From Candidatus Bathyarchaeota archaeon (GTDB lineage: Archaea > Thermoproteota > Bathyarchaeia > 40CM-2-53-6): a DNA stretch of 33,341 nt. Positions 8,707 through 32,004 of this stretch are shown piece after piece. The stretch's first letter is position 1. Each line of letters begins with the position of its first letter. Position numbers and translations under genes: made by a program. The notes beneath the pieces were generated by a model. That model was not told the DNA's origin and searched no databases. It saw nothing but the letters and a program-made list of their open reading frames with translations. The DNA is taken from NCBI GenBank assembly GCA_005888755.1, contig VBBQ01000039.1, positions 1 through 33,341 of the forward strand, written 5' to 3'.

Positions 8707-8815
8707 GCCCCGGTGGCTCAGCCTGGTAGACAATCCAAACCCGGCCAAGAGCGTTGCCTTGGTAGACTCCTCAAAAAGGCAAAGGTCACGAGTTCAAATC
8801 TCGTCCGGGGCTCCA
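8707..8815 (+). tRNA. tRNA-Thr(GGU) with two introns (D-arm and anticodon loop)
   Basis: Acceptor stem GCCCCGG (8707-8713) pairs with 8805-8811; discriminator T at 8812; CCA is encoded at 8813-8815. The T arm is 8788-8804 (ACGAG/CTCGT, loop TTCAAAT). The anticodon stem TTGCC (8754-8758)/GGCAA (8778-8782) holds anticodon GGT at 8761-8763. Two insertions must be removed to get a normal 77-nt tRNA. Inferred intron 1 is 8730-8749 (20 nt, D arm, position 22/23), with a 4-bp central helix TGGT/GCCA and 3-nt bulges. Inferred intron 2 is 8765-8776 (12 nt, position 37/38), with central helix TTGG/TCAA. Removing intron 1 restores GCTC/GAGC. The T discriminator and the near-identity of the acceptor with the tRNA at 13790 support Thr. 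The 3' end is overlapped in antisense by the homing endonuclease gene. Confidence 0.9.
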
Positions 8816-9700
8816 CAATTTCTCGCCAGAATCTCTGATGATCCACAATCTCCCACGCTTCTTGAAAATCCGTCGCCACTCAGCCCCAGCCTTTGAGGGA
8901 CCGAACCTGCGTAAGAGTTCTAGCGCAATCAACATTTTCCGCTGTTTCCTGCGAATCGCGAAGCCAATACGGTCAGCAAATAATTCCTGGTCACTACGCC
9001 GCCCGATCTTCAGATAATAGCAGGGGACTTTACTCCACATGCTTCGATGCTTCTTTCCTTCCAGCAACCGCGAATCGATCCCGAACCTTGACTTCATCAG
9101 GCGACTGATCCATTTCAGCAATCGAACATCTGTGTTTACTATGACAATGTAGAAACCGAATGATGAATTCCTAGAACACCCTGCGGAAATTGCCGGAGAA
9201 CCCTCAGCATCAGCAAACCCCTGGACAAATTCGGATGGAAACCGATCCACCGTTTTCCGAATGGCAGCGGTATATGACAGGTATTCATACAGAATGCGAC
9301 TCCAAACTCTAACTAGATAGAACCCATGAGAATCCTTCCTAACTATCTTCGGCTTCCCCAAGACAGAGCCAAAGCAGGAACAGACTTTTTCCGCAAAATC
9401 CAGGTCCTTGACTCTCAACCTAAGAAGATAGTGATACGAGGTTGTCCGTATCAGATCCCCATCGCCAAGCATAGCGCCCGCAAGATAGCTTAGCGACGGC
9501 GAAGGAGTGAGGGTCGGGATGACAAAACTCCCTAATGGCGAATTCTTACCTGTGATCCAATTGTAAACTGTCGAACTAGGGAGGTCTAGCAGCTTGGCAA
9601 TCGTCTCGCAAGAAACCCGGCGATCGTGTCTCAGCCGGAGGACCCTGGCATACACCCTAACGCGAGCGTCGAGGGAGAGATCCTGCAATCTTCTTGGCAT
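8786..9700 (-). CDS. Free-standing LAGLIDADG homing endonuclease
   Basis: 304 residues. An N-terminal helix-turn-helix (about 11-52, with SCETIAKLLDLPSSTVYNWI) is followed by a two-motif LAGLIDADG domain: YLAGAMLGDGD at about 72-82 (catalytic acid in GDG) and FVQGFADAEG at about 158-167 (DAEG form, as in active monomeric enzymes). The region near 255-290 is basic. Such enzymes make site-specific double-strand breaks and spread introns or themselves. The frame runs into the neighbouring tRNA-Thr(GGU): its last residues, WSPGRDLNS, are the antisense of the tRNA acceptor and T arm, and the stop lies in the T stem/variable-loop border. The true protein may once have ended earlier. It sits beside, not inside, the tRNA introns. 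Both acidic motifs are intact, so activity is possible. Confidence 0.88.
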   Translation of the reverse strand: MPRRLQDLSLDARVRVYARVLRLRHDRRVSCETIAKLLDLPSSTVYNWITGKNSPLGSFVIPTLTPSPSLSYLAGAMLGDGDLIRTTSYHYLLRLRVKDLDFAEKVCSCFGSVLGKPKIVRKDSHGFYLVRVWSRILYEYLSYTAAIRKTVDRFPSEFVQGFADAEGSPAISAGCSRNSSFGFYIVIVNTDVRLLKWISRLMKSRFGIDSRLLEGKKHRSMWSKVPCYYLKIGRRSDQELFADRIGFAIRRKQRKMLIALELLRRFGPSKAGAEWRRIFKKRGRLWIIRDSGEKLWSPGRDLNS

Positions 9701-9888
9701 CGCTTACCGGTCGACCAGTCCTCCGTCGACCATGAAACGGCATAATACCCCCAGAGCAAAACGAAACTACCCGGTCAAAGATAGGCGTTGTTTTGTGCTG
9801 ACTTGCTCGGAAGTGCTACAAACGTTGGAGTTCAATCCGAACTAGAGGCCGAAGAAACGCTGTCCGGGGGGCCCCACCGATAAAGCGG

Positions 9889-10170
9889 CTAGGCGGCGCT
9901 AGCGCCCTGCTTCATCTGGGCGACACGGTCCCGCCATGCAGGCAGCTCAGCCATCTGCTTTAGAGCGTTCTTCTCAGCTTGCTCACGATTCATCCACCGC
10001 GTATCCATCGCCGTCTTCACCAGACCCTCGAACTTCTTCTCAAACGGCAAAAGCTTCCCGTTCATATCAGTGCAATGGATACAGTAAGGATTATTCGGGT
10101 TCTGAGCGCCGTGCTGCTCGTTCGTCTCCATGGGCATTCCGCAACTTTCACAGCGCGAAGCGAGAGACAT
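9889..10170 (-). CDS. Small zinc-ribbon protein (Zn_ribbon_2-like)
   Basis: 93 residues. An N-terminal zinc ribbon is formed by CESCGMPM (about 7-14) and CIHC (about 30-33), followed by a helical region (KKFEGLVKTAMDTRWMNREQAEKNALKQM, given here as description of about residues 45-73) and a conserved-looking LPAWRDR end. The pattern CxxCGMPM...YCxxC fits the 'putative zinc ribbon' family found in many bacteria and archaea, often with an unknown role. No membrane segment is seen. It is monocistronic and divergent from the coiled-coil protein at 10313. Confidence 0.8.
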   Translation of the reverse strand: MSLASRCESCGMPMETNEQHGAQNPNNPYCIHCTDMNGKLLPFEKKFEGLVKTAMDTRWMNREQAEKNALKQMAELPAWRDRVAQMKQGASAA

Positions 10171-10265
10171 GGATCCAACACGAACGAGAGACGGAACAAG
10201 AACTAATAACCTAACTGGACATTACGCGAGAAGGCGCGAGTAACAAATAATCCCGCACTTCTAAA

Positions 10266-10275
10266 CCTATAATAG
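10266..10275 (+). promoter_or_regulatory. TATA-like box upstream of the coiled-coil protein/rpiA operon
   Basis: CCTATAATAG lies about 40-45 nt before the ATG at 10313, compatible with a start site near 10295 and a short leader. Confidence 0.4.
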
Positions 10276-10312
10276 TCTATAACCCAGCCCATCGAAGAAT
10301 ATCGCTAGAGGA

Positions 10313-31206: not shown

Positions 31207-31219
31207 ACAATATGAGCAG

Positions 31220-31612
31220 CTAGTTTTGTTCGCGAGGCGCGAGTCTAGCGAGAATCTTACTCGTGTCGCCACCATTCAGTTTGGCGATCTCTCTCAGAAG
31301 GTCGTAGTAGGATCTGACGTGCCGCTTGCCATCGCGGCCATGATAGAGGCTTACATTGGCGTACATTGTAGTCACTAGTTCGTGGTTGTACATAGGATAC
31401 TGAGTATCGCCAAGGCCCAGTTCGCTCAGTTGTTGGCTGATAGCTCCTTCGCGGAGATCAAGAACCTTCCTCCCCTTCCGCTGGCGGTTTCTGTTCTTTA
31501 ACCGTGTTCCTTCAATGCGGCAGTCGTCGCTGCAGTATTTCTCGGAAAACCAGCCTAGGAATTTCTTCTTGCAGACGACGCACGTCTTTAGGACTTTTTT
31601 GTCGACGGCCAT
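31220..31612 (-). CDS. Zinc-ribbon protein with C-terminal helical domain
   Basis: 130 residues. TCVVCKKKFLGWFSEKYCSDDCR at about 10-32 is given here by its cysteines: CVVC and CSDDC, a DUF2116-like zinc ribbon. A basic stretch KNRNRQRKGRK follows, then a folded domain with YHGRDGKRHVRSYYDLLREIAKL near 90-112. It is probably nucleic-acid binding. A TATA-like box (31661-31670, minus strand ACCATATATC) lies about 50 nt before the start. Confidence 0.7.
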   Translation of the reverse strand: MAVDKKVLKTCVVCKKKFLGWFSEKYCSDDCRIEGTRLKNRNRQRKGRKVLDLREGAISQQLSELGLGDTQYPMYNHELVTTMYANVSLYHGRDGKRHVRSYYDLLREIAKLNGGDTSKILARLAPREQN

Positions 31613-31660
31613 GTTTCGTAACCGTGTGTCTATGTTTGTACCGAATCCCTTCGCTTGTGG

Positions 31661-31670
31661 GATATATGGT
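31661..31670 (-). promoter_or_regulatory. TATA-like box of the zinc-ribbon gene
   Basis: ACCATATATC on the minus strand, about 50 nt before the ATG at 31612. A second, plus-strand TATA-like AGTATAAAA at 31682-31690 has no clear gene behind it. Confidence 0.4.
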
Positions 31671-31872
31671 AGAGAGGTCCCAGTATAAAACTAACATGCC
31701 TCTAACGAGCCCGAACCTACAGGGAAGATTGATTGACCATGCTTTGTACTACGCAAAAATCATCCCCGAACAGACGCGCCAGTTTCACCTTTCTTGTCAG
31801 AAACAAAAGAGTCGCCCCGGAGGATTTTGAAAGGTAAGAGCTAAAGCAACATCGCACTTTGGAGGCAAACGA

Positions 31873-32004
31873 GGGGCTGTCGGATAGCCAGGTCTAGAGG
31901 ACCAGGATATCCTCGATGCGTCCGGACAATCCGCGTGGCTTGGGAGCGATCTGTCGCGCCAGGAACCCACGAAATCGCAGGTTCAAATCCTGCCAGCCCC
32001 ACCA
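31873..32004 (+). tRNA. tRNA-Pro(UGG) with two introns (D-arm and anticodon loop)
   Basis: Acceptor GGGGCTG (31873-31879) pairs with CAGCCCC (31994-32000); discriminator A at 32001; CCA encoded at 32002-32004. T arm GCAGG/CCTGC with TTCAAAT. Anticodon stem CGTGG (31934-31938)/CCACG (31967-31971) with anticodon TGG at 31941-31943. Inferred intron 2 is 31945-31965 (21 nt, 37/38): CTTG pairs with CAGG and GCG/CGC forms the inner stem. Inferred intron 1 is 31897-31929 (33 nt, 22/23): inner stem GGAC (31899-31902)/GTCC (31920-31923); the central helix is imperfect. Removal restores D stem GGAT/ATCC and a 78-nt tRNA close to other archaeal tRNA-Pro. The exact D-arm junction could shift by a base, and two smaller introns are not fully excluded. 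Confidence 0.87.

Follow-up and report, generated by a model that had tools for sequence, protein, structure and literature searches.

Here we describe intron-laden tRNA genes on a 33,341-nucleotide (nt) stretch of DNA from an uncultured soil archaeon, hereafter the window, which is the entire contig VBBQ01000039.1 (C41 of genome G000 in our numbering) of a 2.01-Mb metagenome assembly that is 95% complete with 1.8% contamination. The window holds four tRNA genes, all of which are interrupted, by eight introns in total (two in Thr-GGT, three in Met-CAT, one in Thr-TGT and two in Pro-TGG). Across the genome, 40 of the 42 tRNA genes that we decoded, one per anticodon, are interrupted, and the 84 introns give a density above that of any archaeal genome that we found reported in the open-access literature. 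Bulge–helix–bulge (BHB) introns very probably saturate the tRNA genes of this lineage of Nitrososphaeria, with the BHB rule, applied to conserved exons, giving rise to intron sites that unrelated tRNAs share. The kind of intron, the D-arm site at 22/23 and the type of splicing enzyme are known; it is the load that is extreme. A preliminary description of the window, made from its letters, had reported the eight introns in four genes and a 22/23 intron in the Thr, Met and Pro tRNAs; both observations hold, the former by decoding and by ARAGORN calls on the spliced forms, and they understate the genome.

The four genes and their introns are listed by window position, with the evidence for each.

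8707-8815, forward strand: tRNA-Thr(GGT) gene with encoded CCA and two introns; decoded, spliced form confirmed by ARAGORN, orthologues in relatives.
8730-8749, forward strand: tRNA-Thr(GGT) D-arm intron, 20 nt, at 22/23; pairing of exon TGGT to intron GCCA, intron retained by relatives in diverged form.
8765-8776, forward strand: tRNA-Thr(GGT) canonical 37/38 intron, 12 nt, bulge–helix–loop; central helix 3.5/4, anticodon stem 4/4.
12271-12397, reverse strand: elongator tRNA-Met(CAT) gene, no encoded CCA, three introns; decoded.
12355-12373, reverse strand: tRNA-Met D-arm intron, 19 nt, at 22/23; exon TGGT pairs with ACCA, present in several families of the order.
12325-12339, reverse strand: tRNA-Met 37/38 intron, 15 nt; central helix 4/4.
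12285-12302, reverse strand: tRNA-Met T-loop intron, 18 nt, at 59/60; the site is common to iMet, Glu-CTC, Glu-TTC and His of this genome and to Met of relatives.
13790-13875, forward strand: tRNA-Thr(TGT) gene with one intron; acceptor stem and T73 as in Thr-GGT, spliced form called Thr(tgt).
13826-13836, forward strand: tRNA-Thr(TGT) 37/38 intron, 11 nt; by BHB scoring.
31873-32004, forward strand: tRNA-Pro(TGG) gene with encoded CCA and two introns; decoded, orthologues in relatives.
31898-31929, forward strand: tRNA-Pro(TGG) D-arm intron, 32 nt, at 22/23, near-strict BHB; central helix 3.5, inner helix GGAC/GTCC 4.
31945-31965, forward strand: tRNA-Pro(TGG) 37/38 intron, 21 nt; central helix 3.5, inner 3, outer 4.

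On the unspliced window, ARAGORN finds one of these four genes and misnames it Tyr(GTA), and an Rfam tRNA search recovers two. Once the introns are removed in silico, ARAGORN calls all four full-length with the expected anticodon. A tRNA-Tyr at 13790-13875 is ruled out by the acceptor stem and T73, which fit Thr, and by the ARAGORN call of Thr-TGT on the spliced form. ARAGORN with introns allowed, or Rfam alone, was rejected as a means of annotation, as most genes are missed or miscalled. We therefore located genes by Rfam, a T-loop pattern and a clade model made from spliced sequences, and decoded them by a script in which a gene may hold several introns and both the spliced cloverleaf and the BHB are scored; 15 tRNA genes were resolved or entered by hand, and 150 of the 701 clade-model candidates were scored. 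The evidence on the tRNAs is sequence and comparison.

Introns are found throughout the tRNA set of the genome, contrary to the prospect that the remaining genes would prove mostly intronless. Among the 42 genes, 2 have no intron, 9 have one, 19 have two, 11 have three and one, tRNA-Phe (C4:90839-91003), has four, at 8/9, 18/19, 37/38 and in the variable loop. In the tRNAscan-SE 2.0 study, archaeal tRNA genes have at most three introns each, and the highest load is 71 introns over 46 genes (PMC8450103). The canonical 37/38 site holds 23 introns; others lie in the D arm (19–24), at 30, 29, 15 and 8, in the variable region, and at 53 and 59. Intron lengths run from 11 to 65 nt, leaving no room for a self-splicing core. 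ARAGORN assigns the expected anticodon to the spliced forms of 41 of the 42 genes, the exception being Pro-CGG, and the central helix averages 3.27 of 4 pairs, compared with 1.72 for shuffled introns. Genes for Tyr, Cys, Lys-TTT and Ile-CAT were not found among the candidates scored in this 95% complete assembly.

Several individual genes are unusual. In His-GTG (L146) and Glu-TTC (L014), the anticodon itself is interrupted by an intron, at 34/35, and both introns end in GGCAAA/T (the slash marking the exon boundary). Asp-GTC (L066, G000:C32) has an insertion of about 52 nt at the junction of the acceptor stem and position 8, in addition to D-arm and variable-region introns, with weak BHB. In a relative (G017), L176 1274-1550 holds the 3′ part of a tRNA-Met with a T-loop intron and no adjoining 5′ part, possibly rearranged or split; a divergent CAT tRNA-like gene adjoins it on the opposite strand.

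The window's serine hydroxymethyltransferase shares 95% identity with its counterpart in Crenarchaeota archaeon 13_1_40CM_3_52_10, 92–94% with those of several soil metagenome-assembled genomes (MAGs) named Bathyarchaeota BA_x, and 62–65% with MAGs of the nearest named order, Nitrososphaerales. On these identities we would therefore assign the host lineage to Nitrososphaeria, with a position perhaps close to group I.1c (f_UBA183, Gagatemarchaeaceae; PMC10640624). Judged by the spans of tRNA matches alone, one or two of about 31 strong matches are uninterrupted in a member of the same family (G018), and roughly a third of the tRNAs are uninterrupted in a complete genome of the same order (G029). 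The order therefore appears intron-rich, and the family extreme. Our searches of the open-access literature returned nothing relevant on a four-intron archaeal tRNA, on tRNA introns in archaeal metagenome genomes or on such introns in Nitrososphaeria; neither the density, the four-intron gene nor an intron load in this lineage was found described there.

The D-arm introns of Thr-GGT, Met and Pro all map to 22/23, which, like 53/54 and 59/60, is a listed non-canonical intron site (PMC4090602). The boundary is fixed in Pro by the near-strict BHB, in which exon GTCT pairs with intron GGAC; it can slide by a nucleotide or so in Thr-GGT, owing to a repeated GA, and the best central helix in Met is offset by one nucleotide. 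In orthologues from relatives the exons are constant and the D introns have diverged in sequence and length; Met of G018 has exon TGGC and intron GCCA, a compensatory change with respect to TGGT/ACCA. The Pro 22/23 intron occurs in 13 congeners and in G018, which represents a second genus of the family and whose Pro gene was read by eye; Pro genes of other families have a 15/16 intron instead (f2 and f5) or only that at 37/38 (f3). Within the order, families f1, f2 and f4 have the Met 22/23 intron; f1, f3 and f6 have the Thr D intron, at 21/22 or 22/23, and f5 has an 8/9 intron in its place. Because the same sites recur in congeners and families with constant exons, the shared D-arm site, as read from these sequences, is not due to chance.

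Why should unrelated tRNAs share a site? Site sharing is general in this genome, involving positions 8, 15, 19–23, 29, 30, 37, 44, 53 and 59, and wherever a site is shared, the exon strand of the central helix consists of conserved tRNA sequence: TGGT or GGTC in the D loop (21–23), the anticodon stem (29–30) and TTCRAA in the T loop (59). An intron would persist wherever the four exon bases 5′ of the cut can pair with the intron 3′ end. The conserved D-loop nucleotides, including the nearly universal G18G19, would provide that exon half at 21/22 to 23/24 in most tRNAs, and unrelated tRNAs would therefore come to carry introns at one place. Thr, Met and Pro would each have gained or retained their D intron separately. 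The BHB rule thus predicts site sharing without sharing of intron sequence, which matches what we observe.

The enzyme that such introns require appears to be encoded in the genome. The preliminary description had called for a broad-specificity endonuclease, for example a heteromeric one, and two PF01974 genes outside the window bear this out: an alpha subunit on C46 (E = 4.9e-27) and a beta subunit on C32 (E = 7.3e-12). The alpha protein (189 amino acids (aa)) aligns along its length with Aeropyrum pernix EndA (3p1z; E = 4e-42), through the crenarchaea-specific loop (CSL), whose sequence, GIPKPKPDQDFEVPL, lies opposite DVEKPRG-ADFEGPL of 3p1z. In this alignment, on which residues were counted by hand, K42 of alpha lies opposite K44 of A. 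pernix, and Y126, H134 and K165 are conserved. The beta protein (176 aa) lacks the catalytic triad. Two PF01974 genes are present in 33 of the 41 genomes searched; six genomes have one and two have three, most of these being incomplete assemblies. With both alpha and beta present, a lone homodimeric endonuclease confined to strict BHB motifs is ruled out. The genes predict a crenarchaeal-type heteromer, (alpha–beta)2, and its specificity is probably broad, given that A. pernix EndA owes its own breadth to the CSL lysine (PMC6379350). Such an enzyme would remove all of the introns, relaxed motifs included, and the exon ends would then be joined by the usual archaeal ligase.

Some points weigh against reading these insertions as BHB introns throughout. 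The BHB null is lenient and the test partly circular, as the decoder chose boundaries on the same score; comparison among relatives is less circular than the shuffle test. Many single introns are not strongly above the null on their own, and motifs are weak in Asp (7/8 and variable region), Glu-TTC (37/38), Gln-TTG and Gly-TCC (D arm) and Lys-CTT (variable region). The structure of Pro-CGG was not resolved by decoding. The total of extra sequence is firm, and the intron counts of Lys-CTT, Ile-GAT and Pro-CGG could each shift by one. Splicing in the cell is predicted here from the genes.

The mode of intron gain is a separate question, to which mobile elements offer one possible answer. At the 3′ end of the window's tRNA-Thr(GGT) lies a compact insertion, with the following features.

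8816-9877, no strand assigned: element of about 1.06 kb at the tRNA-Thr(GGT) 3′ end; empty site in G010, G007 and G001, related elements in G005 and G018.
8786-9700, reverse strand: LAGLIDADG_3 protein of 304 aa with an N-terminal helix–turn–helix (Pfam PF14528, 1.2e-9; PF13384, 2.3e-5).

The element sits between tRNA-Thr-GGT and a gene for a 93-aa protein, which are about 15–20 nt apart at the empty sites, and the last codons of the 304-aa open reading frame (ORF) overlap the tRNA gene antisense. A worn copy of the tRNA 3′ end (8803-8816 and 9862-9877) is not above shuffles on its own; the related inserts of G005 and G018, 77–81% identical and at the same place, have a clearer copy at their far side. 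No phage relative was found. Elsewhere in the window, 29001-30299 holds a TnpB-like ORF (Cas12f1-like TNB domain, PF07282).

Such arrangements recur among the relatives. At loci with short standalone LAGLIDADG ORFs, a tRNA lies within the fetched stretch in 14 of 26 cases, compared with 1.6 expected (binomial 6e-11), although the loci are not independent (Trp appears four times and Thr twice). The ORFs lie antisense at the 3′ ends of Thr-GGT, Arg-TCG, Arg-CCG, Val-GAC and Lys-TTT, and on the same strand on the 5′ side of Trp and Pro-CGG. Of the 12 loci checked, 5 have the tRNA end duplicated on their far side (Thr in G005 and G018, Arg-TCG, Arg-CCG in G004, and Trp), and Pro-CGG in G011 is similar. 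In the genome described here, the 5′ end of tRNA-Trp has an exact 19-nt duplicate 829 nt upstream, and a LAGLIDADG ORF separates the two (L027 555-1384, G000:C13). The upstream relic runs into sequence resembling the tRNA-Trp D-loop intron of G003, G004 and G005, which the live gene does not have; the insertion apparently exchanged a 5′ exon with an intron for one without. The tRNA-Met gene of G016 (L164 1514-3018) is cut between variable loop and T arm by an insert of about 1.37 kb. This insert has a LAGLIDADG-like ORF of 372 aa (LRGLADSDGDV motif, Pfam match below cutoff), to which the window protein has no similarity by BLASTP. LAGLIDADG domains also occur in very long frames (700–1600 aa; C1, C11, C27, C30, C17 and others), which are probably inteins, many per genome.

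tRNA genes are therefore insertion targets in this clade, and insertion is tied to intron change in one case. From here it is a tentative step, with perhaps some chance of being right, to the proposal that LAGLIDADG elements, by inserting into tRNA genes with replacement tRNA ends and swapping exons with and without introns, drive intron gain and loss in the clade; a similar idea has been put forward for Caldiarchaeum (PMC3293823). A slightly more doubtful form of it holds that compact elements (~0.8 to 1.4 kb), with LAGLIDADG as their sole sizeable gene, insert with a replacement end at the 5′ or 3′ end of many tRNAs, and that this exon swapping produced the highest known intron density. However, there is a single clear exon swap, and that swap removed an intron; moreover, several loci, that of the window included, lack the end copy or have one that does not stand out from shuffles. 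The window D introns lie far from the 3′ element, and LAGLIDADG elements do not directly explain them; a weaker link between mobile elements and introns may exist. Recurrent LAGLIDADG elements at tRNA ends were not found described, and a search for LAGLIDADG at tRNA attachment sites returned nothing relevant, in the open-access literature.

Copying of one intron class between tRNA genes was suggested in the preliminary description as a possible source of the Thr, Met and Pro D introns; intron transposition of this kind has been proposed for Thermoproteales. We regard it as improbable. Look-alike introns at the same site do exist: Gly-TCC and Gly-GCC at 53/54 (z = 7.7) are the one striking pair genome-wide, and further pairs are Asn/Lys at 30/31, Ala-GGC/Thr-CGT at 44/45 and the His/Glu-TTC introns mentioned above. 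The very similar introns in different tRNAs that mark transposition of the Thermoproteales type are nevertheless not seen among Thr, Met and Pro, whose D introns are no more alike than shuffles (z = -0.8, 1.2 and -0.9; cores -1.1, -0.1 and -0.7), and over all intron pairs the same-site excess is small (z > 3 in 3.9% versus 1.4%). Old copies could have diverged past recognition, which limits the similarity test. The introns also differ in phylogenetic depth, Pro 22/23 being limited to the family and the Met and Thr D introns occurring in several. Because the D introns are dissimilar and differ in age, transfer of one class is not supported.

Selection for introns that protect tRNA genes from integrating elements, likewise raised earlier for the D-arm site, is less likely still. 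Elements do target tRNA genes here, T-loop introns would disrupt a 3′ attachment site, and Thr-GGT of G001 combines a T-loop intron with an empty site. But interrupted genes are occupied: Thr-GGT (that of the window included), Arg-TCG, Arg-CCG and Trp carry both introns and an element, and D-arm introns do not touch the 3′ site. Finally, assembly error or decay of the tRNA genes as the origin of the insertions can be practically dismissed, even though the genome is a metagenome assembly and ARAGORN alone fails on most genes, since there is one gene per anticodon with no spare copy found and the same structures turn up both in other families and in numerous congeners assembled separately.

The most extreme load of tRNA introns among archaea is no longer that of hyperthermophilic Thermoproteales but that of a Nitrososphaeria lineage from soil, in which introns outnumber tRNA genes two to one and a single tRNA has four. 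Ordinary annotation overlooks most tRNAs in genomes of this kind, which makes codon and completeness statistics unreliable for the clade. The genus offers a graded series of relatives for dating intron gain, loss and shift, and the LAGLIDADG elements at tRNA ends provide a testable mechanism for intron turnover, a question that has stood since intron transposition was proposed.

The closest known parallel is in Thermoproteales (Pyrobaculum, Thermofilum), which combine an (alpha–beta)2 EndA with two or three introns per gene, of BHB and relaxed BHB type and at both canonical and non-canonical sites; the published site list includes 22/23. Against their record of 71 introns in 46 genes, with three per gene (PMC8450103), there are 84 in 42 here, with one four-intron gene, in a soil Nitrososphaeria host and with little sequence sharing between introns. 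Thaumarchaeota, in the tRNAscan-SE 2.0 study, belong to the same broad group and have non-canonical BHB introns, but all of their genomes in that study together have 107 (PMC8450103), compared with about 60 in this single genome. The A. pernix EndA (3p1z, 3ajv) likewise combines a catalytic alpha subunit, bearing the CSL lysine and the Y/H/K triad, with a separate beta subunit that lacks the triad, a likeness that is drawn here from sequence. In Caldiarchaeum subterraneum, too, tRNA-Thr(GGU) has two introns, one of them in the D arm, and a nearby integrated element at the tRNA gene is linked to intron change (PMC3293823); the D intron there, however, lies at 24/25, the element is linked to plasmid integrases, and only 13 of 45 tRNA genes are interrupted (PMC3293823).

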